Assembly (NCBI GenBank): GCA_037176845.1
Contig: JAYKXP010000048.1
Location: forward strand, 186,001 to 250,000
DNA: 64,000 nt
Origin: Paramarasmius palmivorus
Lineage: Eukaryota; Basidiomycota; Agaricomycetes; Agaricales; Marasmiaceae
Direction of reading: 5' to 3'
This document shows, piece by piece, positions 14,603 to 64,000 of this stretch. Position numbers and translations under genes: made by a program. How positions within the stretch are numbered: position 1 is the first letter of the stretch; every line of letters starts with the position of its first letter. The notes beneath the pieces are model-generated. The model worked only from the letters and a program-made list of their open reading frames with translations. It was not told the DNA's origin and did no database searches.

Positions 14603-15948
14603 ATGACCTGTTTTCCATTCCTCGGTCACCAATCTCGGTCTAGAAGCACCAATCGCTCATCCGCGCTATTTCGAATTCGAGTCTTCTCATATAGTACGTG
14701 GCAAGTTCACTTTTCTGGCCACCTCTCTCCCTAATCCATGGCGTTAAACATCCAGCCCGCCCTCGGCGGTTCCAGGATAATCCGACTGACGCTCTCAAGC
14801 GCGATGACGAGACAGACGAAGACTGGCTTCGTCGACTGAATCCCGACGGCGCACCATTGCACAAGATGTCAATGAAATTCTTTCGAAGCTTGGGCGACAA
14901 GACGATGGAAAGCTGGCTTCGTTGCTTCCACATCAACCTAAAGAAGCACACAACTGGGAAGAGGTGTGCAGATTTGATTTGATTCATTGGAATCACAGTT
15001 CCACTGGACATTCTACCAGCAGTCATGGGGATCGAGAGGATGGAGAGTCATCCTCGGAGCAGTGAGTATCGATTCTCGAACGAGGACAGCATTTCTGTTA
15101 TATGACGTGCTTTTAGGGATGCACCTGTGTCTTCAGCGAGCGCCTTGGAACCGTTCAAATCGGCCAGGAATATGCGCTCTGCAAATTCAGCATACAACAA
15201 GAAGCGGCTCAATGCCATCTTCAAGGAAATGGAGAACGTATGGGAGGCTGTAGTGAGTCTAGCGGAAGAAGGAGAGGCGCAAGTGACAAGCGCTACGCGT
15301 AAGGGGGAGCTGGCTAAGGAGAAGAACAGGCAATTGCGGCACGATTTGGAGGAACTAGGGAATAGCCAGGCTGACTATGAGCTTAAGATTCGGGATCTCG
15401 AACTGGAGCTAGTGGAACTCCAGCGAAAGTGCGACGCTCAGGAAGCCGAGCTAACTGCTGCTAGACAACAACTCGAAGGTGAATAGTATTCCTTATTACT
15501 ATGACAGGAAGATGACAACTTCGGTACATCAATAGACCCAATGTTTCAGCAAAAATACGGTTCGAATATCCTGCTCATCTCTTCTCGCCTCTCGCTGAAC
15601 GTCTTTGTAGCATATGTAGTCGACAACACAGAGTTAAGGGCCCGTCTCGAGGCAGTCAGGGCTAACGGTACGTCATCGTCCCAACCTCTCCAAGCGCCAG
15701 CCAGCTAAGAATGATCATTCACAGATGAAGTGATGTTGGCGGGGCTGGGCTGCCAATTTGGCAAGGCAATCGCGGACTTTGAGCAATACCCGAACACTGC
15801 CAAGCTCATCCGAGATTGTCGAGACTTGAAAGCGCGAGTGCAGGCTTTGGCCAGTACTAAAAGCAAGGAAAAGATGGCGCTGGATGGCTCCGATGCACTC
15901 GTGCATGGCGACACAGCTCATCCTGCGAAGAGGCAAAGAACAGAGTAA
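14603..15948 (+). CDS. Coiled-coil protein with EDWL-R-NPDG N-terminal module (class A, copy 1)
   Basis: Function unknown; predicted nuclear. The N-terminal module has RFQDNPTD, then DETDEDWLRRLNPDG, a short linker and ESWLRCFHINLKK. An acidic Ser-rich linker follows (exon near 15016-15058), then a coiled coil from about 15127 to 15480 (ELGNSQADYELKIRDLELEL). The C-terminal hairpin LAGLGCQFGKAI / LIRDCRDLKARVQAL leads to the terminal AKRQRTE. The start is inferred: no ATG lies in frame before the module, but an exon 14603-14693 with a GTACGT donor and an acceptor at 14754 gives an in-phase start (MTCFPFLG) and an FSY block resembling FSIY of the copy at 53712. The ATG at 14738 is out of frame. 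The next gene downstream is a tandem paralogue in the same direction. Confidence 0.68.
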
Positions 15949-16204
15949 ACGAGGTCTACTGTCCCTCTCAACTTTATCTACCTTTCCGTCTCTCATGTAC
16001 AAGTAGTCTACATCGACAGCCCAAAATGTTTCACCTTTAGATAGTATCCTTTGTGTTTCGATCTGAGCGGCTGACGAGCCAGACAAATGATTTAAATCTC
16101 AGATTTACTTCCGATTTGTCGTTGTTGTCTTCGAGTCGGGATTCTTAAGGATCTCGCGATGACCCCATTCTCCCCCGAGTCTCCATTTTCCAGGTCTGTC
16201 AGCA

Positions 16205-17251
16205 ATGTCTGAGTCACCTAGTACTTCTCGTACTCGCGGTCGGGAAACGCTCAAGATCTACCAACGCTTCAAGAACAATCCCCTTTCTGTCAAGATGCGT
16301 TATGACGAGACTGAACAAGAGTGGTTCAACAGGATCAACCCCGACGGAAAATCACTGAACGGGAACACGGTTCGTTTTCTGAAGGGTCGCGAGTACGACG
16401 ACCAAACCTTTATCCAACATTTTCACAATAACAAGGCCTTGTTATTGAAGAGGTAAGATGCTAACATTCGCTAAGAAAACTCGTTTTACTGATGCCCAAG
16501 CACTAGGGAAAGCGATAACCAGTCTTTGTATGTCCATCATCAAATGCTTCCACTGCCCTAAGTACTGACTGGTAATCAATAGCAAGGAGGAGTCTTCATC
16601 GAAACGACCTGAGACCCCACCTTCCCAGCCCTCCAGAGACAGCTCGACCGCAGCGGCGCCTGACCCCCGAGCAAAGTGCCTCGATGCCGAGCTGGATGTG
16701 ATTTTGGATGCCGTATCACGAACAAGACAGTATGGGCAAGCGGACAAGCTTGAAATCGACAGTCTCAGACAGAAGAATAGCGAACTCGAGGAACGAAATG
16801 TGGTGCTTACCGGCGACCTCGAAGCGGCGCGTCAAGCCCCAATTGCGACCTCCAGGGCAAGCGAGTCGGATACGATCCGAGGTATGTACCGCATGCTATT
16901 TGATTCTACTCGAGAATTGAACGTCTCGTTATTAGTTTACGAAGAGCATATTGCAAAATTGAAACCTCAGGCGGAGCGAGTAGAGACCGTAGAGGCATTG
17001 ATGTACATGGGTAAGTCATTTCTTGCCACCATATGACAAGCTAAGACTGATATTGTTGGTGAGTGGCAGACGGTATCATGCTCGTTGATTTTAAAGGTAA
17101 AATGAGCACGATCATCGCAGCTTTGGAGCGGAACGCAAACCCCAAGGATATCATTGATGCGTGTAAGGATGTAGAGAAACAGCTACGAGGCTGGGAGATT
17201 AGCAGGGAAAACCATCCCGCGCGTCCATACAAAAGACAAAGATCGGAATAG
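16205..17251 (+). CDS. Coiled-coil protein with class A N-terminal module, copy 2
   Basis: Paralogue of the gene at 14603, about 250 bases downstream. The first exon starts at the ATG 16205 and carries LKIYQRFKNNP, DETEQEWFNRINPDGKSL, FLKGREYDDQ and a terminal LLLKR where the module ends at a GTAAGA donor. A small exon (ESDNQS) and a Ser/Pro-rich linker follow. The coiled coil (about 16690-16880, with LRQKNSELEERNVVLTGDLE) is shorter than in other copies. After more introns comes the C-terminal hairpin (VDFKGKMSTIIAAL / DIIDACKDVEKQL) and the end YKRQRSE. The terminal basic motif matches monopartite nuclear localisation signals. No stop interrupts the exons I could join. The intron placement after the module (K-R) is shared with copy 1. 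Confidence 0.75.
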
Positions 17252-17324
17252 TTCGCCTTTCCGTTCCTAGGTTCTTTATGACTATGTGACTTTCTTTGTA
17301 CGATTGTGTATAGTACCGCAGCAT

Positions 17325-19983
17325 CTAGTGCATCAAGATAGTCGAAGCGCGATCAAGTTTTGCCTTCACTTGCCTCATGATTAATGAGCTCGAGGGATGC
17401 AACGGGAAGTTCAGGATGGACTTACAGATACGGGTGGTCTTGACACTGTCCCGGCTACGACTAGATTTATTCAGCGTCTGTAGCTGAGCAACGAGAAGCG
17501 AGGTTTTAGACGAGTACTCCGGTGGAAAAGACTGAATCAAGCAGTAAGCATGTGCTCAAAAGTCATAGCATTGCGTATTACCTGTAACCACTTCATTAAC
17601 TCATGCTTATCCATCTGAGATTTTATCAGAGGAATAAGGCGAGATAACACATCCAGAAACCTTGGGGCGGGACCGCAAACGTCCAGAAGCGCACAGAGGC
17701 TCCAGAATCTACGACAAGAAGGAACAAGGTGATGTGTCACTTCCTCCGGATGCCACTCCCAGACATCCATCGCAATGAACGCTGCCTTCCTCATAGCGAT
17801 AGATAGTTGGACATGGTGTATGTCGCGAGAAATGTCTTCTGGGCAAGGAAGTGTCATATATAACGAGCTGGTGTGCGCACGTGTGCAGCTACAATCGTTT
17901 CCGAAGGAGACGACTCGAACATGATCGGAACGGAAGAAATCAAAGTATTGCGGGTCTGCCTTTTGCTTGAGCTTTATTGACAGTAGGCTGTTCTCCCAAA
18001 CAGCTGGTTCATCAAGAGTACTGCTATGAGCGCGGTAGCGGTAGCGTCCAAAACCTCGCGCAACAATGTCTCGTGAATATTTTCCAGCACTTGAACACGA
18101 AACCCTCGCCTGTAATCGGAGAAGCGCTCTATTACGTCGGCACATGCAGGAGAACTAATTTGCTGCGTGAATCGTCAACTTTGTGAGACCAGATAAAGGA
18201 TAATGAGCCTTACCCGTAAGCTACTCAAAAGCCGTTCTGATAATATGAAGAACGACTGTATCCTCCACCGAATCGTCCACCATGGCGTCGAGGTCTCGCG
18301 TAAAGATCTCGAGAAATATGTTCCAAGGACCTTTGAGAAATCGACGGTCCGGAGAGTATCTAGGACTTCATCGTCGATCGTGCTTTCTGTGCAGTAGAAA
18401 CCCCAGGTCCCCCATGCTGCCTTGAAGACGGTGTGTCTACACCAAGCAAGTTCAGTATTGTGCCTTATACGCGATTGTATAAACTTACTGGGTTGGGGAT
18501 AAGGCGTCCTCATCCCCTCCGCAGATTGCGAAGTAGTGATCTATGGCGTGAAGAAGACAGCGGCCAAGAAAGCCAAGTCGTCTCTGTTCATCTCCAACAT
18601 AAAAGTATCCGGATCGTGCCTCGTCACGAAGGAAGTCGTCGAAGGCTGCATGAAAAGTCTGGATCTCATCATCTGGGCCCCCGATGTCAAGTATCGAATG
18701 CATTCCACGCAAGATTGAGAGGACGTCTCCTTCACGTAGCAATAGCAGGGCTTCAATATGTCTCGGTGTGCATTTCAGCCGATAATGAGCTCGGGAAGGT
18801 CTGGATAGTAGTGGAATCGATGCGATAGCACAAATTACGTCTCGAAGTTTGGAACGCCGAGGATTAGTCGAGAGAATTTGATGATAGAGGATGTCTAGAT
18901 CATGCAAGGGTGAGCATGAATCCGGGTCCAAACGAAGCAAAGGGCAAAGCACAACCTCCAGTTGTGTGCATGGGTTAGAATACTCGTCATCAACAAACTT
19001 GACCACAGTAGCAGCATAAATGAACTGTCCGCATGCTTTGTGGACAAGTTCGTAGACGGCACCGCCTGCAGGCCACTGAGCTGGAAACGGAATGTGACAG
19101 TTACGAGGTGATTTCCGAATTTGTTCGAACTTGTTGACGAGGAAAAGTCTAATGTCCTTGTCTGGGCTGAACGTGTCATCCAACGCGACACGCATTAGGT
19201 AAGGACGGAAATATTCGGTGTTAAACACCTCCCGGATCGGCGGTTCCGGCCTGCTGCAGATGAGAATGCGAAAGGGTATATCCTCGGGCAATGCAGAGGC
19301 CAAAATAGAGAGGATACGCTGCTGAGAGGAGCTACCGATACACTCGTCTAGGCCATCAATGACAAGAAGCCATGGAAGGCAGTGAGGCCGAGGAAGCAGT
19401 CTGCAGGGATCGATTATCAGCTCTCTGAATTGATCCTCGAGCGTCGCCTGTATAACAGCGGGATTCCTTCGGATCGCATCTTCAACCAAGCCTTGAAGCT
19501 CGGGTATAGCATACGCGAGTGAATGTGCGAGAGAGAGAACCAAGGAATTTGGATTATTCCTTCTTGGGTCATTGCGCGAAAAGAAAAAGCTACCCGCAAG
19601 AAAGCCTTCCCTTTGTCCTGCTTCAGCGATAGTCTGGGCAATCGCTGATTTGCCTGCGCCGGCGGGACCATATAGCCAGAATATGCGGTCTTCAGGTAAA
19701 GTGCTATTGATCCAGCTTTGAAGGATCTGGATGACCTCTCGACGAGTGTCTGGGTGACATTGGGGAGGGGGATAGCGTGTTTCTGAGTTATGGCTTGCAC
19801 CGACGTCTTTGATGGCGGTCCACAGTAGGTGAAGAGCTATAATTCATTGGCTGTCAAAAGTCTGAAAAGAAACAGAGAAAGAGACGTACGGTCTGAGGCA
19901 TACCAATTATTGATATCTCGTCCTGCCACACTAAATTGCCCGTTGTAAATCTGGAAGCCTCGAGCATTCGCAAACATTGACAT
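17325..19983 (-). CDS. NACHT-domain NTPase (fungal NLR-like), copy 1
   Basis: Predicted signal-transducing STAND NTPase. The start MSMFANARGFQIYNGQF at 19983 is a short N-terminal exon with the motif FQIYNGQFSVAGRD; a 70-nt-scale intron follows. The main exon (about 19836-18490) has HNSETRYPPPQCHPDTR, Walker A GPAGAGKSA, SFFFSRND, Walker B LLVIDGLDEC, the sensor segment ICSRPEPPI, and GQFIYAATVVKF, all standard for Agaricomycete NACHT proteins. The winged-helix-like part ends with LDIGGPDDE and SPTQ. Two or more exons follow with WGTWGFYCT, CALLDVCGPAPRFLDVL and KWLQ-SFPPEYSSKT. I see no WD40, ankyrin or TPR repeats, so the C-terminal recognition part is short or absent. No stop or frameshift interrupts the NACHT exon. 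It sits between class A and class B coiled-coil genes. Confidence 0.87.
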
Positions 19984-20644: not shown

Positions 20645-22471
20645 TCAGGAATCAGTTCTCCGTCTCTTCTTTTTCCTCTCTTCCTCTACTGGTATCTCGC
20701 CCTGGGGTAGAGCTTCCGAGAGACGTTCGTGTATGATAAATAACTCCTTGCCCAGATGATCACAGCGTTCAATCACGTCGTCTTTGCGTATCTTGCCTTC
20801 GGCGAAGGCATAACGAGTGCCGATGAATTGGGAAATTAGACCTGGAAGTGCCTTTCGTTCGCGATGATAGCGTTCGTGTAATGTCTTATTGATGGACTTC
20901 TCCATTGAAAGGTCATCTACCAAGACTCAGGTCAACGTTGTGCGATGAGGAACAAGATGGATCCATATACCGTTTAATTTTCTAATCCTTTTGTCCAGTT
21001 TACGTCTATCCTCCTTTGCCGATTCTTCCTGGCTACGCAGTTTTGAAACATTCGAATCGCACTGAGCTTTCATATCTGATAGCGCTTGGTTGGACGCTTC
21101 TAGTGCTGCATTTTTCTCTTCCTTCTGTCGTATAACGACTTCCAACTCCTCTCTCAGCTCGCTCCTCGCAGTCTTCACTTCGTCCAATTCTTTGTTGAGC
21201 TCAGCGTTCGCAGTTTCTTCTCCGGAAATTCGACTATATGCCTCGGACAATTGTTGAGTGAGATTTTCGACCGCCTTTTCAGACGATTGTAGTCGTTCGT
21301 TCTCTGCGTGGGCCTGTTCCAAGTCCGTCGTACAGGAAGCCAGCCTCTCTTCGAGCCGAATCTGTGAGTGCAGTGCTTCCTTCTGGCTTTTCCGAAGTTC
21401 CACGGTGCGCGCTACTTCCTCTGTTGAAGAACTGTCAGAAATCACACCAAAAATGAACGCCAGAAGAGCTTACCCTCGAGCTTCTTCGTCGCTTCGGCCT
21501 CTCTATCCCGCACGTTCCTCAGCTCCTGCTCCTTCTGGCCCATTCTCGCCTCCCAATCATTCATATTCTGCACCAACCTCTCCTCCATCGCCTGGAACTC
21601 TGTTGCCAGGTCTTCATTCTTCTTCTCAGCTGCCTCTGCACGCCTCTCCAAATCATCCTTCTCCCTAAGCACTGCCTCCAACTCCAACTTGACACCCTTG
21701 GACTGCAAGACCTGCAACTTAAGCTCGTCTATTTGATGCTGGTGCTGGTTGGCAGACCGTAATGAAGCTTCCTTGTCGTCTTCATGTGACCTAATGCGAT
21801 CCAATAGGTCGGTATTGGTCTCGAGTAGTGTCTTGTTCGAGGAAATCACGCCTTCGTACGCCTCGAGGGTTTCCCTGAGTGCGTTGCGTGCGTCGTTGAG
21901 GCTAGCTTGAAGGTGAGCGGTATTGCTGCGACCTTGTGATGAGTTAGACGAATTGGTGAGAGCTTGAGAGCCTGCAGATGACCCTGCTCCGATAGAGATC
22001 GAGGTAGATGTGGAAAGTCTTGCAGTAATTTCTGATGTCTGTGTGATCGTGACCGTCTCCTTGTGCTCTAGTATCCGTAGCAGAACTTCGGCGCCGCCGC
22101 AGACATTCCATAGCGACTCGAAGGTGCCCTCATCGACAAGTAATACTCTTCGTACCCTCTCCTTTCGCTCATCCACGACCCTTGAACATCGGATGCTCAG
22201 CGTTGTGCAGTTCGCACACGAAAGCTGCGTCGGCGTTGCTGGGGTACATTTGGCACCTTGAACGCGTGAATCACTGCACGAAGTACATGGCTTTGTATCG
22301 TATCAGTATCAATCACTAGATGCGAGGTGAATCGGTCCACACCTTGTGCTCAAAACTATTCCAGTAATATATTTCTCGATCGTTTGCCTCCCGAGACCAC
22401 TCCGTTAAGAAGGCGTTTTTGAAACCATCTTTTCCGGCTGAGATGATATTCTCGAGATCTTTCTCCGACAT
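20645..22471 (-). CDS. Coiled-coil protein with cysteine-cluster N-terminus (class B, copy 1)
   Basis: Function unknown; predicted nuclear. The first exon from 22471 has FLTEWSREANDREIYYW and ends at a GTGTGG donor. The second exon has a cysteine cluster, PCTSC...KC...LSCANC...RC, resembling the spacing of a fungal Zn(II)2Cys6 cluster but looser, followed by VVDERKERVRRVLLVDEGTF. A long coiled coil then covers roughly 22000-20930 (ELKLQVLQSKGVKLELEAVL, AEKKNEDLATEFQAMEERL, ELNKELDEVKTARSELREEL). The last exon has the hairpin LPGLISQFIGTRYAFAEG / DVIERCDHLGKELFII and ends in KKKRRRTDS. Two in-tandem relatives follow upstream on the same strand at 22946 and 25221. DNA binding by the cysteine cluster is a hypothesis only. 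Confidence 0.76.
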
Positions 22472-22945: not shown

Positions 22946-24816
22946 TCAACCACGGTCGAGCTTTCGTTTCTTTGGCGGAGCTTCAGTGTCTTCACTGTCA
23001 CTATATTTTGCTTGGAGCCTGTTCATGATCACCATTAAGTCCACGCCCAACTTATCGCACATGTCTTCGACGTCCTCTCGCGTAACCTGATTGGCGGAGA
23101 AGTGGGCTCGGACTTGGGCGAATTCTTTCACAAGTTGTTTCATATTTGCCAGTTCTTGGGTAACGAAATGAGCTAGGACCACCAAACGAGTTAATACCAC
23201 TCACCGTTTGTCTGATGTTGGAGTAGCCGTTGAGAGTGTTCTTGTGTTCTTGTTAGGCCAGATAATAGGAATTCCTTTTCGCCTGGGAAGCCTCATTAAC
23301 TTGGACGGCCATACGGAAATGCATATGGACTCACTTTTCAGGTGTTCAACAGCATCCTCAGTCGCCTTCTTCTCGTGCTGTAGCTGCCCGACTACTTCCC
23401 GCAGCTCTGCTGTACCTGATATAGGCGCGTAAGTACCGGCTAGACTAAAGGTAAAGACGTGTTTACCTGCAAAAGCATCTTCTTTTTCGCGTTTGGCTTG
23501 TTCAAGAGCCTCTTTAAGTCGCTGAACTTCCAGAGATTGGCCTGCAGTTTTGCGATATGAGTAAATACCTTGACAATAGGAATCAGCATCACGATAACTC
23601 ACCAAATACCTCCGCCTTGACATTATTCAACGTTTCCATCGTTCTCCCTGCCTCCTTTCTCGCGCTCCTACATTCTTCTTCGGCTTGAAAGAGCCGGTGC
23701 TGTACCAAAACAGTCACATCGCACAATGTGGCCCTGTTTAACGAGGCCATTGTCAACTCTGCTTTTGTCTTCTCTACCGACCCCTCCAATCGCAGCTTCT
23801 TCGATAATAATTCGTTTTTCTCGACGCGTTCTCGGATCAGATCTTGTTGGAAAGCTTCCTTCGCACCCTGCTCCTCCTGTACTCTTTGCTCTAACCGTGT
23901 TATATTCTCCTTCAACTGTTCCATCGCGACATCTCGTTGCAAATCCCTCAACAACAGACCCTGAGCTTCCTCTCTGACAGCAAAGGCATCCAAACCAGAT
24001 GCCTCGAGCTGACTCCTGAGGTTTTGGATAGTTTGATGTAGCTCCTCATTTCGGCGCTGCATGGCTTCGGAATGCCTGGTTTGCTCCGTAAGAGAGGCTC
24101 TGAGCTGTTCGCACTCGGCTCGGGAGGCTTCGTATTTCTGGAGGAGTTTGTAGTTAGCCTCGCGAGCGTGTTCGACGAATCTTGCAAGGCGATGCATAAC
24201 GGAGTTGGTGTCTGTAGTTTCGGAGATATTTGTTGGTAGTAATTCGGAAGCCGTGGGCGTAAGAGACGCGTTTGGAATTGGGTTGGGAGTAGTAGGCGTC
24301 ATTTGTGTCGTGCATTCCTTTGTTGACGATGAACCGATGCTGATAGAGCTTGAAGAGTGAGGATTCCTGAGTTCTTCCACTCTCCGGCCCATATGCTCTC
24401 GAAACAGGGTAATGAACGTTTCACTGTCGAGGCCCAGTGTCTTCTTCACCCTAGATGAAAGCTCCTCCAAAACCAGACTGCAACAGAGTCTTGCCTGCAG
24501 ACATTGTGTGCATGAAACAGAAAGTTGCCCAGATGATGAAGGTGAGTGCGAAATACACGTCGGTGGAGATGGTGTCCCACAACTTGAAGGTCGTAGTTGA
24601 TGTTGTCGAAGAAGGGATTGACATCGCACGCAGGTCTATTGTTGTTATTGCAATCAGGAATTGCAGTTATATGAATGTGAACACGACGATTGAACATACC
24701 CTGTGCTGGTTCTCGCTTCTCCAGAGGCTCAATTCCTCAGCGGTAGGGGATCTTTGACATTCGCGAGCAAAGTCTTCCCTGAGTTGATTCGAGATTGGCG
24801 GTGTCAATTGCTGCAT
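22946..24816 (-). CDS. Coiled-coil protein with cysteine-cluster N-terminus (class B, copy 2)
   Basis: Tandem relative of the gene at 20645. First exon from 24816: MQQLTPPISNQLREDF, then ECQRSPTAEELSLWRSENQ, matching the F-x2-E-x2-R-x2-T-x-E-E-x3-W pattern of the other class B copies. The next exon carries TCVRCQ, a spaced Cys-rich region and CTQCLQARLCC, then LSSRVKKTLGLDSETFITLF in place of the ER-x-R-R-V-x-x-L-D segment of copy 1. The coiled coil runs about 24200-23230 (ECEQLRASLTEQTRHSEAM, ITRLEQRVQEEQGAKEAF). The C-terminus has the hairpin MKQLVKEFAQVRAHFSANQ / DVEDMCDKLGVDLMVIMNRL and ends KKRKLDRG. Cysteine spacing differs from copy 1, so zinc coordination is uncertain. All junctions seen keep frame. 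Confidence 0.74.
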
Positions 24817-25220: not shown

Positions 25221-27140
25221 TCACGTCACACCTGACATTTTCCGCTTCTTTCGTGGAGGCTGCACCTGGACTTCAGCCTCCCCATCTTCTCCATTATCGG
25301 GCTGATCTTCCACTTCGACTTGGAAACGTTTAACCATGATGAACAAGCCCGTGCCGAGCTTGTCGCACGTATTTTCGATGTCTTCCCGAGTGCTCTTCCC
25401 ACTAGCAAACTCATACCGAACCCTGGCTAGCTCCATGGCGAGCCCTTGCAAATTGCCTGATTCTAGGGATGGTCAAAGGAAGGAACTATTCAATGTACCG
25501 TTGCAGCTTACTAGCTATCTGGCGTGTCCTAAGCCGTTCGGCTTGTTCCGTCACTCGCTCCAAATTGGAAGATAAAGTTTGCTTCTCATCTTGGTAAAAA
25601 TCAGCATGCCAGGATGTCAAAGGTAGGAGTGTCATTTGGCATTACCTTCCAATCGCTCGACTATCTCCTCGTTCTCCCGTTGGAGCTTTTGAATCTCTTC
25701 GGCATGTTCTGAAGGACGCATTCAAACGGACAAGATTTAACGAGACATATTAACGCACTAGATGCCTCATCATACGCGATCTTCGAGTCTTCCTCTGCTT
25801 TCTTAGCGTGTTCATCTGGGATATACCTCAGCTGGAAACATTGGCGCAGAAACGACCGTACCCACCCTGGAGCTCGCGGATGGCCGTTTCAGTCTCTTCT
25901 TTATCGCGTTTGGCCTCTTCAAGGGCTCCCTGTAGACGTTTCATCTCCTCAGCTTGAGCTATGAGCGACGGTATATCAGAAACGGCGACATTGGGGCAAG
26001 TTTGACAGCTTACCAGACATCTGAGCTTGAATAGCCTCAAGAGCATCAGTCTTCTGCTCAACCTCTTGCCTTGCGTCCTTAGTTTCTTGCTCTGCCTTCG
26101 ATGCCTTTGCGTGCCATTGGCCGACCGCGTGTTGAAGCTGGGAAACGTCTGTGGCCAACTGATCGTTCTCGCCTTGCAACTCGCCGACCCGGGCGGAAGC
26201 TGCAGCGAAATCCTGTCTTGTCTCATGTAGCCAGACCTCCAATTGCGTCCCAAGCCGTACCAACTCCGTCTTTTCCTGCTCGAGACGAGTCACAGTCACG
26301 TTTAAGTGATCGACTTCACCGTCCCGATACAAATCCCTCATCAACAAGTTCTGGTTTTCGTCCCGGACCTGTAGGATCTCTTGCCCAGCAGCCTGGAAGT
26401 GACTGTCGATATGTCGATTCGCATGATTCAATTTCTTGTTTTGGTTCCACATGGTCATCAGCTGCATTCGTGTATCACTGAGTTGGGTACAGAGTTGTTC
26501 GTTCTGGAGCCGGGAAGCGACAAGCTGCTCGTAGAGATTTTGGTTGGCTGCTCGAGCGTTTTCGATGGCTTGTGTGACGCGAGTGTCAGTGGTGGTCGGG
26601 AGGGCCGGTATGTTCGGATTAAAAATGGTAAGGCTGGACGACTGAGAACTTGAAGACGTGGAGAGGGCGACAGTAGTACATGATCCTTCCCCTTCCTCTT
26701 TGACCTTCTCCGGCTCTGGCCTCGCCCCATTATGCACTAAGCGAGCTCTCCGAATCACCATAAAGAAATCCGCCCAAAGAGTTTGAAACTTGTCTGTGTC
26801 AATCTGGAGTGCTCGCATTATACGAAGACCTCGTTCCTCTCCGGCGAGGCTGCAAGGTTTCCCCTCTTTGAGGCATTGTATGCACTCGGCGTGGCTAGGG
26901 CTTGGGCTGATTTTGCATTGAAGCGTCTCTGCCTTCTGCGACCGTTGTTTTTGAAGAGTTTCACAGCGGTGACAGATCTGCTTCAAGGGTAAAGAGACTA
27001 AAACGCTAAATGAAGGTAAACTTGGTGTGTACCTTGGTCTGATTCTGATTTTCACTCTTCCACGCTCTGATTTCTTCTTCGGTAGAGGGTCTTGTATATT
27101 CTCGGAAGAACGCCTTTTTGAGCTGAGCTTCGGGTTGCAT
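25221..27140 (-). CDS. Coiled-coil protein with cysteine-cluster N-terminus (class B, copy 3)
   Basis: Third tandem class B gene. First exon from 27140: MQPEAQLKKAFFREYTRPST, then EEEIRAWKSEN. The second exon has ICHRC, a longer insert to LQC, then CIQCLKEGKPC, followed by RGLRIMRALQIDTDKFQTLW, clearly homologous to the segment after the cysteines in copies 1 and 4. The coiled coil covers about 26530-25650 over several exons (VTRLEQEKTELVRLGTQLEV, QEVEQKTDALEAIQAQM). The C-terminal hairpin is LQGLAMELARVRYEFASG / DIENTCDKLGTGLFIMVKR, then an acidic linker (EDQPDNGEDGEAE) and PPRKKRKMSGVT. The insert in the first half of the cysteine cluster is unlike a canonical Zn2Cys6. Upstream, divergent start context is absent because the next gene (NACHT copy 2) is also on the minus strand. 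Confidence 0.74.
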
Positions 27141-27337: not shown

Positions 27338-29905
27338 CTATGGCCAGATACAACGAACACCTCGCAATTCCTCGACTAAGGGTGAGGTTTGAGAACCATA
27401 ATCTGATGGGAAGGACTGGAATATGAAGTCATCAGCACGCCAAATTAAGATGGGATCATATCAATCTTCTCGACGTACCTGAAGCCATTTCACCAGGTCG
27501 TTTTGATCGTGAGTTGTCACAATGCGATAGAAAGTGGAGGAAGCAACTCTAGAAATTCCGGACATGGACCACAAATGTCCAGAAGCGCACAGAGAGAATA
27601 AACCGAACGACTCTTCTCCGTGGTACGAACCAAACGACGTGTATCAAAGTCGGGGTGCCATTCTTCGGTATTATGCAATGCGGCACGAACCGACTCTCGC
27701 AATGCAACCGTCGTTTGAACGTGGTACACGCCAAAAGCGAATGTGGATTCGAGGCATGGGAGTGACAGGATCGTTGAAGCGTCCTCCCCTCGAGTGCGAC
27801 CACAATCGTTTCTCATCGATAGTACTTACAGTAACTTCGAAGTGCTTGAGGGTGAAGAAGTCCAAGTGCTTGTGGTAGTGATCAGTATCTTTCTGTTTCA
27901 ATTCGGTCATGGCGTCGGGCCATGAAGGTGCAACAGAATCCCCGACCAAGAAGCGGCCCAGGGCGGTCGCAGCAGCACCGAGAACCTCGGTGGTTTCCAT
28001 GCCGCGACTGTTTGGACGGAAAACTCTGACAATGAATCCCTTTCTCTCAATTCAAAGAGTGACTTTATAAGGTTGGTATAGCTGTTGTCATCGATGGACT
28101 TTCATTAGTGTGAGTGGGGTGTTGTAAGATAACTAACATACCAATAAACGTTGCAGAACGTGTTCGACTTGCATAAAGAACTCCCGTAACTTTTGGCCAG
28201 GTGATTTGAATCCAGACGATAACCCTCGTTCTTGGTGCAGGTAACCTGCAACATATAGCCCAAAACTTCTCGTGAAATCTATTTTGCGGAGAGCATCCAA
28301 CGCCTCTTCACTAATGTTACTCTGCGAATAGTGATATCCCCAATTTGCCCAAGCTTCATGGTATATAGTCGTTCTACACGTCGCCAGAGTTAGTACGTTC
28401 TAACTCGTACTGAACTAGTGACTTACTGAGGTGGAGATAATGCGTCTTCGTATGCTTTGTCCCAAACTTGCGAGTAATGATCGATGACGCGGAGATATTG
28501 ACACCCAAGGAAGCTATGTTGACTTCTTTCATCTCCGACGCAAAAATACCCAGATCGGGCTGGGTCACTTAGGAAGTCACCGAACGACGCATGAAGAGTA
28601 CGGACTGGTTCATCGGGTCCACCAATGTCCAATACGGAATGCATCCCACGCAACGCCAGAATGACACTTCCTTCCCTCATGAGGAGTAATGCTTCAAAAT
28701 CTCTTGGCGTAAGCTTGAAACGGTATGGTGATAGGTGAATTGATCCCAGCGCTCGGACGATGTCTCGAACCTTGGAACGTTGAGGGTCGGATGAAAGATT
28801 CTGATGGTACAGGGAATCCAAATCTCGGAAAAGTTCCAGCAACCCTGGATCAGGTTCGGGCGCTCCAGTTGGGCTTAGAGCAAGCTCAAGCTGCGTGAAT
28901 GGATCGGAGTACTCGTCGTCCACGAACTTGAGCACCGTCGCTGCGTAGACGAACTGCCCGCACGCCTTTTGTACCAGTTCATCAAGTATGCCTGGAGCAG
29001 GCCACGGCGATGGGAATTCAATGTGTTGGTAGCGAGGATTCTTTCTGATCTGCTCGAAACCGGAAACCAGAAAGGTTTTGATATCACGATCTGGTCGAAA
29101 GGACTCGTCCAGAGCAACGCGGCGCGAATAGGGCCGGAAGGCGGTCGTATCGAACACCTCCCGAATGGGCGGTTCAGGCCTACTAGAGACGAGGAAACGC
29201 ACTAGCACTTCCGTCGGGAAAGTAGTAGAAAGGATGGAAAGGATGCGTTGCTGTACTCGACCAACGTCGCACTCATCAAGCCCATCGATGATGATTGGCC
29301 ATGGACGATCATGCATCTGCCCAAGGGCTTTCATGGGTTCCAAGATGAGCTTCTGGAACTGCTCAAGAGAAGCATGCAAAAGATCAGAGTTCTTCTGGAT
29401 TGCTTGGCGAATCAGGTCCTAAAGCTCTGGAATGGTATTCGCTAGCCCGTAGGCTACGCTGAGAGAAACAGAGGCTTGGCATTGTTGCGTTTCGGATCTC
29501 CTCTTGAAAAGAAAAGGCTCGATACCAGGTATCCATCCTGCTGACCCACGATGGTCTGTGCAAGGGCCGATTTACCAGCGCCAGCGGGACCATAGAGCCA
29601 GAAAATGCGATCTTCCGGTGAGTGACTATGAATCCATGTTTGAATTACATTCAAGACCTCTTTCCGTGTGTCTGGATGACATTGCGGTGGTGGGTAACGA
29701 GATTCTGGGTTGTGACTAGCTCCCACGTCTCTGACGGTTCTCCAAAGAGCCTGGAGAGCTACATGGGAATCGGGTTATTAATATTGAACGAGAGAAAAGA
29801 GAGAGAAAACGCACGATACGCCAAATACCAGTTGTGAACGATATCACCTCCTGCAACATTGAATTGCCCGTCGTGAATCTGGAAGCCACGAGCATTTACA
29901 AACAT
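27338..29905 (-). pseudogene. NACHT-domain NTPase, copy 2, broken by frameshift and stop
   Basis: Paralogue of the gene at 17325 over its whole length: N-terminal GFQIHDGQFNVAGGD, RYPPPQCHPDTR, Walker A GPAGAGKSA, Walker B IIIDGLDECD, VSSRPEPPI, GQFVYAATVLKF, LDIGGPDEP, then CALLDICGPCPEFLEL and SFPSDYGSQTSPLVEEL before a stop at 27338. Two lesions follow Walker A. After RNNAKPLFLS the frame meets a TAG near 29451-29460. The copy 1-like continuation (VAYGLANTIPEL) is open only in another frame, and that frame meets a TAG directly before DLIRQAIQ near 29421-29423. A 39-nt GT-AG segment lies here, but removing it does not restore frame and it would delete sequence that is coding in copy 1. Two sequence errors are an alternative. 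Expressed function is unlikely unless an unseen splice exists. Confidence 0.75.
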
Positions 29906-32836: not shown

Positions 32837-34171
32837 TCAGGCTGTCCTTTGCCTTTTTAGCGGGCGCTCACCAACGCCCGAACCACCTTCTTCAGGCGAC
32901 TCTACTACTCCTATCTTCGTATCCGCGATAAGGCTGATTCGCAGCCTAAGCCCATTGCAGATATTTATGACATTCTCGAGAGATGGCTGAGCTTGATCGC
33001 TGATTGAGGCTGTCGCGTTGGCGAGGTCACTTGCAATAGCACGCAGGAGTGCTTGATCTGAATACACTTAAGAATCAGCAGCGCGAGCGCAAGAAAGCGT
33101 TAGCTTACCGTTTGCTCTAACCGCTTTCATATGGTCTTGAAGACGGGTATTCTCTTCTGTACGAAAAACAGTTACTAGATTGTCTTGTGTAGAAAGACAA
33201 TGTACGGACCTTCTGATGCCCTTTTTTCGCCCTTGAGGGTCTCAAGCTCATCTTCCTTTTGGGTGAGCGTGTTTGTCAATCCTTCGGCAATGTCATTGGC
33301 TTAGGTTAACGCTTCGCGAACCCTGTTTTCGTTTGCCCGACATTCGGCCAAGTCATCTTCTTTCTCGGTGAGAAGTTGCTGCAACATCATCGAATTCTCT
33401 GTGGTACCTTGAGTTATAGTATTGTGGGGACGATATATGAGACAAACTCACCTTCCATGTCGGACTGAACTACCCTCAGCCTGTCTTGAATTTCCTTCAG
33501 CGCATTGTCCTTTTCCTGAAGCTGAGTTTGGCAATTGGTATGACTGGCACGAAATTGGTCGAAATCCCTCCTCAAGTCTCGATTGGCCTGCATAAGACTT
33601 CCTCTCTCCCGCCTGAGTTCGTTGAGTCGTGATTCCATGTTCCGGTTTGCTTCGGTTGCCTCTTCGAGCGCTCTCACAGATTCCCATATTCTAGCACTCC
33701 CAGAGGAAGACATGGATTGTTCACGCATACTTGACTGCGGGGAAGGAGATGGCGTTGGTAGCCCACTGGAAACAATGGAACTGTATTGACTAGTTAGCAC
33801 GTTTAGGATTCCAAAAAAAAAAAAAACCGCGAACTCACGTAGGTGATCCACTTTGGCGTCTTTCGTTGGTCTTGGCGGCTCTACTGCACTGTGAGCAGAT
33901 CTACCAGCGTTCATAACATTGAGAACACGCACCGTTCCGCCGCCCTTCGATTGGTGTGGAACCTCTGGATCCAGTCTGCTGGATCCTCGTTTGGCCTGGG
34001 ACCCCTCAGAAAGCTTATTGTGTTCGGAGCCAGCGCATAGCCTTGGGGGTTAATCCTTGTGAGCCAGTCCTCCTCCGTTTCTCCTTCACGCTTCTGAGCA
34101 CCGACTGGCTCGTCCTTGTGAAGCTTGTAAATGCTCAGCGTTTGTAAAGCCGAGCGAAGCTCCAAGCTCAT
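32837..34171 (-). pseudogene. Class A coiled-coil gene, copy 3, with in-frame stop
   Basis: Starts at the ATG 34171 with LSIYKLHKDEP, then EGETEEDWLTRINPQGYALA, SFLRGPRP and DWIQRFHTN, the full class A module. A Ser/Pro linker and coiled coil follow (ESRLNELRRERGSLMQ, LQEKDNALKEIQDRLRVV). In the next coiled-coil exon the heptad frame reads CRANENRVREALT, a TAA (33301-33303 on the plus strand), then ANDIAEGLTNTLTQKEDEL. The same frame and character continue on both sides, and the upstream splice fixes the frame, so this is a point nonsense change rather than a wrong frame. The C-terminus is intact: LLRAIASDLANATA / NVINICNGLRLRISLI and PLKRQRTA. A truncated product without hairpin and basic tail is possible. 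A sequencing error at one base is the alternative. Confidence 0.72.
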
Positions 34172-53711: not shown

Positions 53712-55400
53712 ATGGCGATTGCATCCGCCGGCCAGATTTTTAGCATCTATGAAAGGTTCAAGAAAAACCCGACCGATGTGCAACAGAGGGAAGGAGAATC
53801 TGAAGAGGATTGGCTCAAAAGGATTCGCGAAGGAGCCGACTACACTATCCCTTGGGCTACCAAAGAGTTCTTGAAGGGCTGTAAAGATGGACAGTCTTTG
53901 GAGGACTGGATGAAACGATATTACACCAACCATTGCTCCAATCGCGGAAAATCTGGGGAAACGTATGTTTATGAGTTGGGTTATACTTCTCTGACATGCT
54001 GAACGTTACTTCCTCCCAGAAAACCGGTCATCCAGCAGTGAGTATACATGCTATCTCGGCGAACTACTACATTCTTATTCCATGGTCTTGAAAAGCCTTC
54101 CAACTCCTTCTCCCCCTTCTCCTGATCCCCAACAGACTAGTTCCAACCTGTTCACCCCGACTCCGGATCCTCCATCCACCTCAAGGTCGACAGGAAAAGC
54201 ACCGGAACTCGAGCGGATCACCGACGACGATTCGGATGACGACCTTGTAGTTTCTGTCACCACGCGTCGAAATGCATGGAAAGCCGAGAAAAAGGACCTG
54301 TTGTCCAAGATGGGGTGTCTCAGAACAGAAAATGCAAGCTTGAGAGAAGAGATTGAGACCCTACGCGCTCAAGCAGGTTCACGACAGGATGGCAGCCAGA
54401 GGGCAGCTTCGGAGACTACAATGGCAGAGAAAGAGGGTGAGTACCTTTGTACTGAAAGAAAGGAGATAACTAATAACAGGTCTGAAGGTCTCCGAAAAAA
54501 AGTAGAAGACGAGGAAACGGCACGAGGTGTATTACAGGCTAAACTCAAGGAGAGAGATACTACTTTGGCTGCTAAAACACAGGAGGTGGACGGTAAGCCG
54601 TTATCGGTTATCTCTTGTTGAAGTGAGGGGTGTTAACGAGAAATATAGCTTTGAGGGAGGAACTAAGCAGGTACAAACATGCTCAAGAAGAGAACGAACG
54701 CAAGAAAAACGATCTGGAGGCATCGTTAAACGAGAAGCTGAGAGGTTCACTGACCCGATATCTCGATGACCTTCCATACATCTGATACACTTCTTCAGTG
54801 AAAACCGCACGAGTTCTTGTACTGGAGAATGCGCTGCAGGATACGCGTATGGATAGCCGTATGATTCAGGAAGATATCCGTGAACTATCAAAAATGAAGG
54901 ACGAACTTTTGCTCCAGTCGCAGCGCTTCGAGGAAGAGCTTACCCGAGAACGCGCCTTATCAGAAGACGCTCGAGGAAGGCTTGAAGGGCTACAGGAGGA
55001 GACAGCCGAACTCACAGGTACGGACTAGGGTGATGATATACAACGGTGTAGGTTCATTTCCATTCTTCCCAGGCCAAGTTACCGACTTGAAGGGGTGCAT
55101 CGCGGCAACGTTTGCGAATGGTAACGTTTCCTTCTGCCGTCCTATCACCGACCAAAACTAAAGAATTCTCCCGCAGACAGAATACTTCTCAAGGGTCTCG
55201 CCAGCCAATTCGCTAACGCAGCGAAGGATCTTTCGGGAAATGATAGTCCCAACGCCCGGGCTATAATCAAAGCCTGCGAAGACCTGGAAAGACAGTTGAA
55301 CGCGCTCGCCAGGACAAAACTCGAATCACCGACTGGCGGAAGACCACTCGAAGACCCGGGAGACGGTGAGCGTTCGCCTAAACGGGCAAGAACTGAATGA
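53712..55400 (+). CDS. Class A coiled-coil protein, copy 4
   Basis: Relative of the genes at 14603, 16205 and 32837. Start 53712 with QIFSIYERFKKNPTDVQQ, then EGESEEDWLKRIREG, KEFLKGCKDGQSLEDWMKRY; here the usual R-I-N-P-x-G reads R-I-R-E-G. A Ser/Thr/Pro linker (FTPTPDPPSTSRSTGK) and an acidic patch (TDDDSDDDLVV) lead to a long coiled coil over several exons: NASLREEIETLRAQ, LRKKVEDEETARGVLQAKL, LREELSRYKHAQEENERKK, EDARGRLEGLQEETAEL. The C-terminal hairpin is LLKGLASQFANAAKDL / AIIKACEDLERQLNAL, followed by a Pro/Gly linker and SPKRARTE. Exons remain open and in phase at all junctions examined. The gene follows the pseudokinase gene in the same direction, with class B copy 4 next. Confidence 0.76.
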
Positions 55401-57469: not shown

Positions 57470-59531
57470 ATGACAGCACGAGCACCACAACCACCACCAG
57501 CAGGATCGGAGTTTCACGTCCCGAATGCAGTTGAAGGTATGAAGACAAAGTTCCTGCAAGAATGGTCGAGAGAAGCGACGGAAGAGGAAGCTAGCATATG
57601 GAACAATTCAAACGCTGGTAAAAGTATGGTGCGTTTTAATACACCTCGTTTCCTTGAGCTCCCTACTCACAGTAACTTCCTCTAGACCTGTTGGACCTGC
57701 ACACAACTCAAAGTACAGTGTACACCGGGATCTCCTAGCAAACTACCATGCACGCGCTGCATTCATCAGAAATCCGAAACCATATGCACCAGGGTGATAG
57801 AGGAGCGTCGGGAAAGGGTAAAGAGAGTGATGAATCTAGACGAGGAGACGTTTACCGCGCTTCGAGCTACTTGTAACAGCTCTCCGTCGCATCAGAGAAC
57901 GACGTCTCCTGCATTTCCCCCACAGGAGACCACCGACAAACATCGGGCCCATGCCATTCGTAACCCTTCACATCAAAATAGAACTTCAGCTGGGCCAGAA
58001 GTCATCGACCTCACAGGTCCTGAACCAGCACGCTTAGTTCCTCCGAAAAGTCCATACCGCAGTATTTCTAGCAGTGGCCACCCTTTTTCGGGTTCATCTG
58101 CGGCTGAACCACAGCGTCAATACAATGCATCTCTTCCACCCCCGCCACCACCCAATCCTTCCTTCGGAGTTTTTCCGGTGGCACGAAGTCAGACTGCACC
58201 ATATAGAACGCCGTCTACTTCCGCTGCTCGAGCTCGACATTCCCCTTATCGTTCTCCACCAATCGCGACTAGAACCGCGTATACGTACGTTCCAGACCAT
58301 CGAATGAACTCTGTCCAATCACCCATTTCACCCCCTACGTCCGCTCATTCAGGTCCGCCGCCTTCATCGGCCTCGTCTAGTTTTTCGTTTTCCTATCCGC
58401 CGTCGCTACATCAGCACCAGCCTGCTTCTGCTCCCGCAGTCACTACACACTATAGTTCATCAAGGTCAAACGATCAGAACCATAGTCAGCATGTCATAAC
58501 TGCCGTACAACACCAAATTGAGAGTCTAAACCAGGTGAACCACATGCTAGCAAGAAGGAATCAGGAGATGTATGCTTTTAGCGAGGATTACGCTCGTAAA
58601 ACGAGGGAGAACCTTTCACGGGCATCGAATGCAACGGTATCCGGAGTCGCTGTAAAACAGGAAGATAACGATGAGACGCCGACGCTGTCCCCAACTAGTT
58701 TACAGGAACAACTGGATAATTCAAGGCGAATAAATAGGAGACTAATTCAACAAAATTCAAACTTACAAAAGGAAGTCGATGAGTTGAAGGGTATCCGAAG
58801 GTCAGGGTCAGAAGGTGAGCCAACGAGAATGCTGGGGCAGATGCAGCTTTCCTCGCCGGTACCTGAGCGAGAGGGAGATTTGGACATGCGGTATCCGGGG
58901 AATGGTGTATCGAGAAAGAATGGGCTAGTAAACGGGGATCTGGCTTCAACTTTACAGGAATTGAAGGATGCAAAGGCTAGGAGTGACGGAATGGCAGCCC
59001 GTTTGGAGGGTATGTAGTGGAGCACTCTATCATTGCGATCTAATGTGGAATTTTCCGCAGAGGAAATGTCCGAAAATCACCGCCTTAGGCAATTTCTTGC
59101 AGACCAGCACCCTAGCCGTTCTACGCAAGGTTAGTTGTTGATTCGTCGCGATTATGTACATTCATGCCGACGATCTCTGTGTAGCTCAAAATGCTATTGC
59201 CGAGCATACGAATCTTCAGTTGCTTATCCGCACGCTAGAGCAAGCGAGAACGAAGGGAGAGATTTCGAGGGTATGCGAAGAGCTGAGACAGGTGGCAGCA
59301 AGAATGTTGGAGCATGTTCCGAGGGGATTCGGATGGGAAGGGATCGTTAGGGTATTAGGTCACGGCAGTGGCCCAACAGAATCAACAATGGGCGTGCAAA
59401 GTCCTGCTGGAGGTTTTGGTATGCATACAGGACCTGGGTCGCCTGCAAGGATCTATAACGCTAGACGTGACGAGGATAGTTTGACAAGGACGAAGCGAAG
59501 AAGAGTTGAGGGGGGCGAGAGTTCAGCATGA
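57470..59531 (+). CDS. Coiled-coil protein with cysteine-cluster N-terminus (class B, copy 4)
   Basis: Relative of the tandem genes at 20645, 22946 and 25221, about 30 kb away and on the other strand. First exon from 57470 with FLQEWSREATEEEASIWNN, donor GTGCGT after KSM. The second exon begins TCWTCTQLKVQC and continues PCTRCIHQKSETIC: spacing C-x2-C-x6-C-x9-C-x2-C-x8-C, a nearly canonical Zn(II)2Cys6 binuclear cluster. Then IEERRERVKRVMNLDEETF, as in copy 1, followed by a long Ser/Pro-rich disordered region (about 57880-58480) absent from the other copies. The coiled part (VQHQIESLNQVNHMLARRN, LIQQNSNLQKEVDEL) is shorter. The C-terminal region has NLQLLIRTLEQARTKGE / RVCEELRQVAARMLEHV and ends TKRRRVEGGESSA. 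Zn2Cys6 clusters bind DNA in fungal regulators, so a DNA-binding role is plausible for this copy (inference). Confidence 0.78.
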
Positions 59532-61409: not shown

Positions 61410-63459
61410 CGCGACAGAGGGAGGAGAGGTAGAAGGGAGAAGGAAAGAAAAGGATATCCAAGAGGTTGAGGCATTTTTAATTTATACCGTAACCTTGTCG
61501 AACCGAGTCGCCTGGCAAAGTACTGCCAAGAAGCACATTCTGAGCGTTCGACTTCTGAAGCACTTTTTTACCGAGGGTAACCAGCAAAATTACGCTCGGT
61601 ACCCGATGTCCGACCCTGTTCTGTAGACAGGAGCTCCACGAACATACCCTTGTACGTAGGCCTGTGAATGTTTCAGAAACCGAAAACGAGAGCGAGAAAT
61701 AACCTTTGAATTACTGTTGACAGATAGTTCGTTGTCACCGGTCGCACCTCGACAATATTCGGTACAAGCGTTGAGTACTCGCCTCCCGCAGGAAGAGCCT
61801 CACGGAGGGTTGGATGACGGTAGCCTAAGACTACACAACTTGCTCTACACCCTTCCGTATAGGTGCCAGGTCTTTAGTGTGAAAATAAAGCCATGTGCAC
61901 GCGCATGGCGGTGAAAAGACAGTACTGCCAAACAAAAGGTATGTTAGCGGCGCTGTCCCAAGGATAAACGGAAAGTTGCATACCTCAACCAAAGGAAATG
62001 TAGCTTCATGACTCCACCAGAAGTTTGAGTCAAGTAGCCCCGCAAGAGTATCGACCATTAACTTGCTCCAAAGCACGGCTATACCGGACTGCGCTCAGGC
62101 CTAATTGTTCCGCCCAGAGGTCCGAAAGAATGGGAGTCGGGTCTAGACAAGTGACCCTGAGATAGTAAACAGGTTGTTATTGCATTTCATCTTGAATGGC
62201 GTCCATCGCGTCCTCGCTGAGGGATGTTGTTCGTTTGCTCTAGTTGGAGCATCCACTTTCGCGACTACACTCATCCAGATACCGCACTAAACTCTGGGCA
62301 TGTTTTGGTAGCTTGGGTAGATGCTAGCTCGATGTGACACTGAACAGTCTCTGCTACGCGACTTCATGAGTAAGATGAATAGGAAAGGAGGCAGTACGCT
62401 TACTCGAAGCATCTCCGGATATCCATCTATATCGCCCGTACCGACAGCTTCAGATGCTTGTTATCCTCCGTCGCGTGAGAATCCAGACAAACTTGAAGTT
62501 GAAGATGAATCTGGTTTCGGAAAAAGCTTGTAAAGGTGCTATCTTCGAGATGAAAAGACTCCGAGTCTCACTGGTATCACATCCCCCACTCCCCCAGGAC
62601 ACCGAGTCAGAATTATCGGGATTCATAGTCCTACAGCTTGCCTATTCCAACCTTAGTACTTGAGAACTTAAGGCCTAGGCGCAACCATCGCGCTTTTTTT
62701 CATTGCTATTATTCGTGACCTACTTCGTCATTGGAGTCAGGTTTCTTGTTCAGAACCGGTGAAAGTTGACAACTCACCCCATCACGGTCCGTTCTTTCAC
62801 TCTCCAACGTGTGGGCTACACTTGGCCCCAGATGCTCGGCGGCCAATACGCGACAAGGCGAGGTGAGGATCAATGGTGTTCACGATAGCTTCGAGTCTTC
62901 ATCGTGTTCAAGCACCAGCAATCTTGCGTGGTTCTGCTGAAAATTGTTGATCAAATGAGGCCCTTCGATAGTGCTGAATCACTTGAGCCCAATATAACCT
63001 TTTTGCGCGATAAACGAGCCAGGTGGTGGTAGCATGCCAAGTGCGACACATACATCATTTCAATTTCCGACCAAACTCGGCATTGTCCGAAGTGAACTTC
63101 ATCACTGTGTACAATGTCTTTTGCAACTTGAACGTTTTCCTCCTTAATGATCTTGAGTATTGTTCGATTCATACTCTTCAGAAGCTCGCTACTGGAGCCG
63201 AAAATTCAAAATGTATTCTGGCAGGAGAGTAATAGCCTCCGTTCGACAAGAACTTAAACTACCTTCATAACGACACATAATTGATACTGGACGTTGAAAT
63301 TTTGAAACGTCGAAGTTATATAAGGTGTCTAAGACTCAAGTGGGAGCTCAGTATCTAACATTTCAATAGTAACCAACAGCCGGGTTTGTATTCAAGAGAC
63401 CAAATGCTATCGTTTCCCAAGAAATCTGCTGTCATCGATTAGCCTTCTCGGATGCTAGA
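61410..63459. other. About 2 kb without a supported gene
   Basis: Open stretches at 61831-62076 minus, 62321-62533 plus and 62951-63172 minus have no recognisable motif and no splice partner I could confirm. The 62951-63172 stretch (MNRTILKIIKEENVQVAKDI) is the most protein-like but stays unassigned. The left part is likely the tyrosinase promoter. Confidence 0.35.
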
Positions 63460-64000
63460 TCACGACTCTCCTTCGACAGGATCCCGAAGATATCCCTTGA
63501 GAGTTTTCATCTGCTCACTCAGCTCGCGGCAGACCCGTAGAGTTTGCTTTCGAGCTGCAGTGAGTCCTTCTATGCGTTCATTCAGCTCAATGATCTCTCC
63601 TATACGCAAATAGATTGTCAGTAGCAAGTCTAAGCTGGATACCTACCTATACGCACCATCAAGATCTGCGTTCTCTAATCGCAACGTGATCACCGCGGCC
63701 AACTGTTCTTCTAGTTCTAAAAGTAGCTCCTCCTTTCTCATTCCAGAGTAGCGTTCTAGCATATGCTTCTGCCCAAGAAACATCATCTGTTCTGAATAGC
63801 AGAGAACCGGAGCTCAGTATCGAGAGAGTAACGTGCAACGCGGTGAACTTACTGCCCAACTCTGACACTCCGCTGGCAGAGCCATTCTCCTCATTCTTCA
63901 ATTCGTGATCCTTAACTGTCCACTGTTCGAGCTGCGAATGAAGCTTTTGAGCTTCTTCACCATTCTTATGCTCCAACGAACGTCCAGACGGGTCCGAACA
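63460..64000 (-). CDS. Coiled-coil protein, 5' part cut by the window edge
   Basis: Three exons of the 3' part are visible: from the edge to 63853, 63791-63657 and 63599-63460, all in phase. They encode KLHSQLEQWTVKDHELKNEE, GQKHMLERYSGMRKEELLLE, LEEQLAAVITLRLENADLD and IIELNERIEGLTAARKQ, then RVCRELSEQMKTLKGYLRD and the end PVEGES. The R-V-C-R-E-L...L pattern resembles the C-terminal hairpin of the coiled-coil family (RVCEELRQ in class B copy 4), but the terminal basic motif is missing. It may be a divergent member or an unrelated coiled coil. The N-terminal module lies outside the window. Confidence 0.6.

Follow-up and report, generated by a model that had tools for sequence, protein, structure and literature searches.

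How nine neighbouring genes may have come to share one type of 3′ half while opening with different modules is the question raised by a 64,000-nucleotide window on contig C48 of the Marasmiaceae agaric Paramarasmius palmivorus (positions 186001-250000 of 410,419 bases; genome 68.3 Mb). A preliminary description of this sequence had listed nine genes built on one plan, namely an N-terminal module, a coiled coil, a two-helix hairpin and a terminal basic motif, and had proposed that modules were swapped onto a common chassis. We identified the N-terminal modules (heads) in eight of them: four class A genes with a W-containing head of ~75 residues, and three class B genes and one class C gene (g57470) with a six-cysteine head. 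The plan is incomplete in the ninth, g30459, which has hairpin and tail and neither head. With a probability of about 0.55, we read the locus as a set of locally duplicated, probable nuclear regulators made from interchangeable 5′ and 3′ halves, with two heads on one chassis.

Gene models, introns at the proposed joints and a probable shared 3′ half

The nine genes are real and lie where they had been placed. Models were obtained with a splice-aware gene finder and then curated; all 44 introns of the curated models are of the GT-AG type and 50-86 nt long, and no internal stop interrupts the frames. The automatic models scored 37.4-94.5, far above the 1.7-13.2 of shuffled sequences (six per gene, 54 in total) and the 1.5-4.2 of the opposite strand; these scored models predate the correction of the cysteine exons, and the same genes were part of the training data for the codon table. 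The predictor recovered the cysteine exons of g57470, g20645 and g22946 when that frame was given a bonus and missed that of g25221 even then, so its splice was set by eye and then checked in the curated model. Comparison with NCBI proteins revealed that P0001, whose class A gene lies immediately beyond the window, has 368 residues identical to the last 368 of our 434-residue model, which carries 66 more upstream. Our model lacks 12 residues of P0002, carries 38 extra upstream and nine extra internal residues with respect to P0004, and disagrees with P0003 at the 5′ end.

Intron structure supports head swapping better than sequence does. The phase counts rest on these models, made without transcripts, and phase was not scored by the gene finder. 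A phase-0 intron lies exactly one residue before the first cysteine of the zinc-type heads in the four cluster genes and in 8/8 tabulated relatives (of 11 modelled). The class A heads are soon followed by a phase-2 intron in six of six tabulated genes (of seven), 9-14 residues past an F/Y-x-x-N motif in the five with this anchor. Genes for JmjC-like proteins that open with the same head have the phase-2 intron after it in 4/4 tabulated cases (of five), at 13 residues in the three that are correctly anchored. The anchor was misplaced for the gene on C181 and absent for C48:261230, where phases were read directly, and the intron table leaves out the loci C298, C18, C210, C257162 and C1. Introns in the coil regions of the nine genes are in turn of phase 1 in 28 of 31 cases, as compared with 10/78 of all introns in the 12 tabulated relatives (Fisher P 2e-14). 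Because codons starting with G, as in Glu-rich coils, could raise the share of phase-1 introns, we also applied a codon-corrected null (positions after a G), under which 42% of introns are expected in phase 1 and P becomes 3e-8. Paralogous introns are not independent, which makes both P values too small, and the contrast is still large. Collectively, these three phase patterns are the best support for the proposed swapping of modules.

Several internal coil exons within 25512-25958, 31532-31877 and 54506-54744 are symmetric (phase 1-1). Two symmetric coil exons of g30459 measure exactly 84 nt, the length of four heptads, and exons of this kind would let coil length change without a frame shift.

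At the protein level, the terminal basic motif had been claimed for all nine genes and was found in all of them: K[KR]x[KR], a pattern picked after being seen in these genes, occurs within the last 14 residues in 9/9 as compared with 24 of 1005 stop-to-stop segments of at least 60 amino acids (aa). All nine tails match K-(K/R)-x-(K/R), the consensus of the classical monopartite nuclear localization signal (NLS), and from the tail only we infer nuclear import of the cluster proteins. The Bimax1 peptide, an importin ligand, was the weakest of ten matches in the Protein Data Bank (PDB; E 2.5, not significant).

The hairpins of classes A and B can be aligned, and compared as profiles they scored 21.2 (probability 40.5%). 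Random coil windows and column shuffles, 150 of each, served as controls, and none of these 300 went beyond 15.3. Whole last exons of the two classes, tails included, reached an hhalign probability of 83.5. For the hairpin of class C the result is marginal (B versus C 17.2, with 1/100 shuffles as high; A versus C 12.6, with 2/100), and thus the hairpin described as common to all classes holds between A and B and is doubtful for C. Eight of the nine genes, with 79-299 coil-like residues, scored higher for coil-like stretches than any of 20 shuffles, and g16205 scored 0 on this crude measure, so that the coil ascribed to all nine is evident in eight. By the same crude score, the stretches that follow the cysteine cluster exceed their shuffles in g57470, g20645, g22946 and g25221 (4/4). 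Matches to DUF3450, YabA, SMC and other Pfam or NCBIfam coil models were rejected as generic coil below cut-off. Dimerization through the coil is predicted by analogy. The chassis as a whole has no described match in Pfam, NCBIfam, the PDB and the literature searched, which is not proof that no description exists.

Two heads and their relatives elsewhere in the genome

In g20645, g22946, g25221 and g57470, once upstream frames were included and one splice was corrected, a conserved helix-like exon is followed by the phase-0 intron and then by a six-cysteine stretch. The g57470 spacers, 2-6-9-2-8, satisfy the zinc-cluster rule Cys-X2-Cys-X6-Cys-X5-12-Cys-X2-Cys-X6-8-Cys, as given in PMC5412356. 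The Pfam model Zn_clus matched g57470 at 18.0 bits (E 0.0031) and g20645 at 11.2 bits, with g22946 and g25221 unlisted; among four dispersed relatives it listed one at 10.5 bits and left three unlisted. When a profile of eight heads was compared with the PDB, the zinc-cluster proteins Leu3, Lac9 and Cep3 accounted for three of the seven sequences at E≤10, none of the three at a significant value (E 0.46-0.78). Judged by sequence, the class B/C head is related to the fungal Zn(II)2Cys6 cluster and has diverged from it, and the earlier statement that no described family is involved was wrong for this module. We describe g20645, g22946 and g25221 as Zn2Cys6-like, not as members of the zinc-cluster family, and zinc and DNA binding by these heads is a prediction.

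The four proteins with this head resemble the Gal4/Ppr1 type, as outlined in PMC5412356, in their N-terminal six-cysteine cluster, with the published spacing in g57470, and in a predicted coiled coil further on. They differ from it in heads that stay below the Pfam gathering score, in a helix-like stretch on its own exon before the first cysteine, in an E-x3-R ... D-x3-F-x2-L segment kept after the last one, in class B first loops of 9-15 or more residues, and in long coils, the C-terminal hairpin and the NLS-like tail. A general Pfam scan of the first models gave no middle homology region, for which no search with a dedicated model was made.

The zinc-type head is dispersed in the genome. Our search returned 36 matches at E≤10, 24 of them at E<0.01, a count that takes in the query, two cluster genes and identical-score pairs that may be alleles or copies. 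We modelled 11 loci outside the cluster (e.g., C48:103209, C73:57268 and C134:113467), which share the homologous head with it and, in the eight tabulated, also the phase-0 intron at the same place. The head is readable at ten of them, yielding 11 heads, since the C18 model (L052, C18:283854-285778) has two tandem copies. Their first cysteine loop has six residues in 11/11; the full rule, in the form given in PMC5412356, is satisfied in 6/11, and the other five break it solely by a last spacer of 5. None of the 11 dispersed models has a basic tail. Coil-like residues number 0 in seven models and 28-53 in those on C18, C210, C85 and C59 (above their shuffles), and seven of the proteins end in a different conserved helical segment. 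In a tree of 12 zinc-type heads, the four cluster copies form one clade with 97/99 support, although the program notes long branches; C298, C18 and C210 were left out, since the exon that precedes the first cysteine is either where their models start or missing from them. Such a family may escape Pfam-based counts of fungal transcription factors.

The C-terminal helix pair of the dispersed proteins looked like the cluster hairpin by eye, a likeness unsupported when the profiles were compared. At C2:961909, a weak match to the class B head was dropped, as it sits in a gene that we read as SDA1-like. Seven zinc-type C-terminal segments compared with three JmjC-like C-termini scored 13.5, with 0/80 shuffles as high (best 13.1), at a probability of 2.7, possibly by chance.

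The class A head gave 14 genome matches at E≤10, all but one of which had E<0.02. The C48 cluster accounts for seven of the 14, in four of our nine genes, in the gene cut by the window end at 63460, and in two further right, up to C48:262642, at C48:257162 and C48:261230 (the latter a weak match, E 1.16, then modelled). Together with the zinc-type heads elsewhere on the contig, at C48:103209 and C48:168178, the last two make the local expansion larger than first claimed. Five heads open JmjC-like proteins of 630-710 aa on present models (C3, C8, C181, C28 and the near-copy C1), which the class A query matched at E 6e-9 to 9e-6. Conversely, a JmjC query recovered the set of the forward search except C48:261230, with E values between 4e-12 and 2e-5 for six class A genes. 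Two degenerate heads, on C88 and C13, adjoin NLR-type (NACHT/NPHP3_N) genes and share one duplicated segment.

The JmjC assignment of these relatives is soft. Pfam JmjC reached 18.8 bits against a cut-off of 24 in one of two proteins scanned, the UniRef names of three relatives start with 'JmjC domain-containing', and an H-x-D plus a later H is invariant in four aligned proteins; in the JmjC fold, His-x-Asp ... His binds Fe(II). On present models, VNI00_001017, VNI00_003342 and VNI00_017616 have the head and the following phase-2 intron as in class A, although the NCBI model of VNI00_003342 has a different 5′ end and contains the head only in part. Pfam found no JmjC domain in four class A proteins, so that the head alone is common to both groups. 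Class A proteins have coil, hairpin and tail in place of the dioxygenase-like domain, and they lack a basic patch found after the head in three of the four aligned JmjC-like proteins. That patch, such as NRINQANSRARRK (in L032, L034 and L031), resembles the consensus of the bZIP basic region; no leucine zipper was seen behind it. Pfam gave three weak single-member matches to the class A head (best DUF2934, E 0.0025, in 1/12 members) and the PDB no significant structure match; the best one there, ASXL1 (E 0.11), was set aside. The novelty once ascribed to this module stands in so far as only weak Pfam matches exist, and it fails in that the head also opens JmjC-like proteins and is not unique to coiled-coil ones. 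Common ancestry of the class A and zinc-type heads was unsupported (hhalign probability 0.1).

Searches of protein databases do not show absence from other fungi. The class A alignment returned only one of the species' own proteins (8000 candidates scored, coil words dominating); a second search had eight candidates and no match, and a third returned three proteins of the species itself and a remote fragment from Suillus. Two JmjC-like genes, C28:2828-5117 and C1:1321777-1324047, are near-identical and lie near the ends of two large contigs, as in a recent duplication or two haplotypes.

How the locus may have arisen

If the locus was built by joining halves, its 3′ half would be the chassis, comprising a coil on mostly phase-1 exons, the two-helix hairpin and a terminal classical-type NLS. 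The first head, Zn(II)2Cys6-like, would come from the dispersed family (g57470, g20645, g22946 and g25221) and may have been lost from g30459; the second would be the class A module that also opens JmjC-like proteins. The joined products would then have been duplicated in tandem. The tail would take the proteins into the nucleus and the coil would let them pair, in the manner of zinc-cluster proteins of the Gal4/Ppr1 type, while the head would set the target: DNA for the zinc head, and for the class A head a site or partner recognized by JmjC-like proteins. Mixed pairs would bring different heads together, whereas the headless g30459 and the stretched-loop class B copies could act as altered or titrating partners and not as direct DNA binders.

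Several results weigh against this assembly. At the zinc-type head, the canonical first spacing is broken in three of four cluster copies (9 residues in g20645, 13 or 21 in g22946 and 15 in g25221, not 6), none of eight proteins scanned reached the PF00172 gathering score of 21 bits, and better sub-threshold matches exist for g20645 (DUF7636, E 0.052) and g25221 (tRNA_NucTran2_2, E 0.0015). Ribosomal protein L34 takes the first two places (E 0.23-0.24) among the PDB matches to the head profile. At the other end, the C-terminal helical segment of the dispersed relatives is not detectably related to the cluster hairpin, and a second multi-copy family of the same region also has basic C-terminal ends. 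Hidden Markov models (HMMs) of the C-terminal region, proposed in the preliminary description as the means to connect the classes, did so only in part: a single-class hairpin HMM did not pick up the other class above noise in the 144 kb tested (best g53712, 6.0 bits, E 1.5). On present models, the tail motif is missing from all three class A genes that the window cuts or that lie past its end, their proteins ending in DPVEGES (C48:250177, the cut gene), LQGWLR (C48:261230) and KSRKID (P0001); the cut gene, proposed as a possible further member, thus has the head and not the tail. Finally, the class A head tree, computed without C1 (a near-copy of C28), C88 and C13, leaves the direction of head movement undecided; C88 stays in the class A head alignment (A6).

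The stretched first loop of three copies also fits a different account, in which these are structural or scaffold nuclear coiled-coil proteins whose zinc-like and class A heads are docking modules that no longer bind DNA or chromatin. The headless g30459 agrees with it, as do coil regions that match generic coil models alone and below cut-off. Against it, the six aligned cysteines are kept in all four cluster heads even though those of class B are only 33-43% identical to that of g57470, which argues for retained zinc binding. Lys/Arg residues between the second and third cysteines number 1-3 in cluster heads, not below the 1-4 of dispersed relatives; a loss of basic residues in the cluster loops, once considered, was dropped on these counts. 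We hold the scaffold account to be a tenable minority possibility.

It is improbable that classes A, B and C are unrelated and converged on coil plus basic tail as a common outcome for nuclear coiled-coil proteins. The failure of single-class HMMs and the marginal class C hairpin would agree with convergence, coils converge easily, and a nearby family is basic-ended too. However, the A-B hairpin score beats every control, the excess of phase-1 coil introns over the relatives is large, tails are present in 9/9, and all the genes lie within 45 kb of one contig, four hairpin queries having found no match at E<0.1 outside the C48 cluster in the genome search (best candidates scored). A nonself-recognition region, with coiled-coil genes co-evolving with the interspersed NLR-type genes, is very unlikely, for although NPHP3_N genes lie inside and beside the cluster and the degenerate heads on C88 and C13 adjoin such genes, these are abundant in the genome (246 candidates, 150 scored), as in agaricomycetes, for which PMC4986451 reports 72 matches per species. 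The shared duplicated segment makes the C88 and C13 cases one event, not two, and no functional link ties the two kinds of gene.

The assembly from interchangeable halves can be taken further, in a version that we consider doubtful. The cluster might be an active generator of combinatorial regulators, in which recombination within the locus puts a zinc, a JmjC-associated or no head on one dimerizing nuclear coil body, the coil gains or loses length through symmetric phase-1 exons with the frame kept, and a network of mixed dimers with different targets arises and turns over. Were the assembly itself true, a head swap at exon level between two families related to gene regulation would be visible in one fungal tandem array, with the joints preserved as intron phases, and a head that has no Pfam assignment and occurs on both JmjC-like enzymes and coiled-coil proteins would offer a handle on what the class A head binds.

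Coordinates and neighbouring genes

Table 1. Coiled-coil genes of the window, in window positions unless C48 is given.
Gene	Class	Positions	Strand	Protein (aa)	Head and other parts	Hairpin and tail
g14603	A	14603-15948	+	351	Exons 14603-14693, 14756-14963, 15023-15061, 15117-15478, 15536-15667, 15725-15948; head in 14756-14963; first exon least certain	15725-15948; AKRQRTE
g16205	A	16205-17251	+	274	Head 16205-16452	17070-17251; YKRQRSE
g20645	B	20645-22471	-	555	Exon 1 22343-22471; zinc-cluster-like exon 21474-22290, then coil; C-x2-C-x9-C-x9-C-x2-C-x6-C	20645-20916; KKKRRRTDS
g22946	B	22946-24816	-	547	Exon 1 24700-24816; Cys-rich exon 23603-24635, then coil; first loop expanded, eight Cys in all	22946-23154; PPKKRKLDRG
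g25221	B	25221-27140	-	532	Exon 1 27033-27140; Cys exon 26014-26977 (splice by eye), then coil; C-x2-C-x15-C-x10-C-x2-C-x6-C	25221-25456; RKKRKMSGVT
g30459		30459-32578	-	573	Long coil; no Cys cluster; phase-0 intron at residue 34	Class B hairpin; AKRQRT
g32837	A	32837-34171	-	328	Head 33933-34171	32837-33057; PLKRQRTA
g53712	A	53712-55400	+	431	Head 53712-53962	55181-55400; SPKRARTE
g57470	C	57470-59531	+	632 (from ATG at 57470)	Exons 57470-57628, 57686-59009, 59061-59129, 59185-59531; zinc cluster C-x2-C-x6-C-x9-C-x2-C-x8-C opens exon 2	Hairpin marginal; TKRRRVEG
Cut gene	A	63460-64000 (whole 63460-64425, C48:249460-250425)	-	264 (whole)	Head outside window	No basic tail

NPHP3_N/NACHT (NLR-type) genes lie between and beside the coiled-coil genes, at window positions 18488-19843 and 28426-29418 (both on the minus strand) and at C48:269126 and C48:271949 (plus strand). 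Of NPHP3_N, only the second half is matched by the open frame at 28426-29418.

A tandem duplication joins 37660-39765 and 43445-45412, with an open frame without Pfam match at 38748-39473. By our reading, C48 has similar frames again at about 80.0, 96.3 and 97.6 kb in window positions, and several multi-copy families have thus been duplicated in this stretch. The other multi-copy family with basic ends, its open frames closing in SKRRKQQ, KKKMKQ and SKRRKHQ, lies at 40551-42586 and, further along C48, at window positions 77155-78597 and 93557-95050; Pfam gave no match to it in 40551-41924 and 77155-78597 (whole) or 94001-95050 (part). To the right of the window, the open frames at 68514-70490 (C48:254514-256490, plus strand) resemble a further diverged coiled-coil relative.

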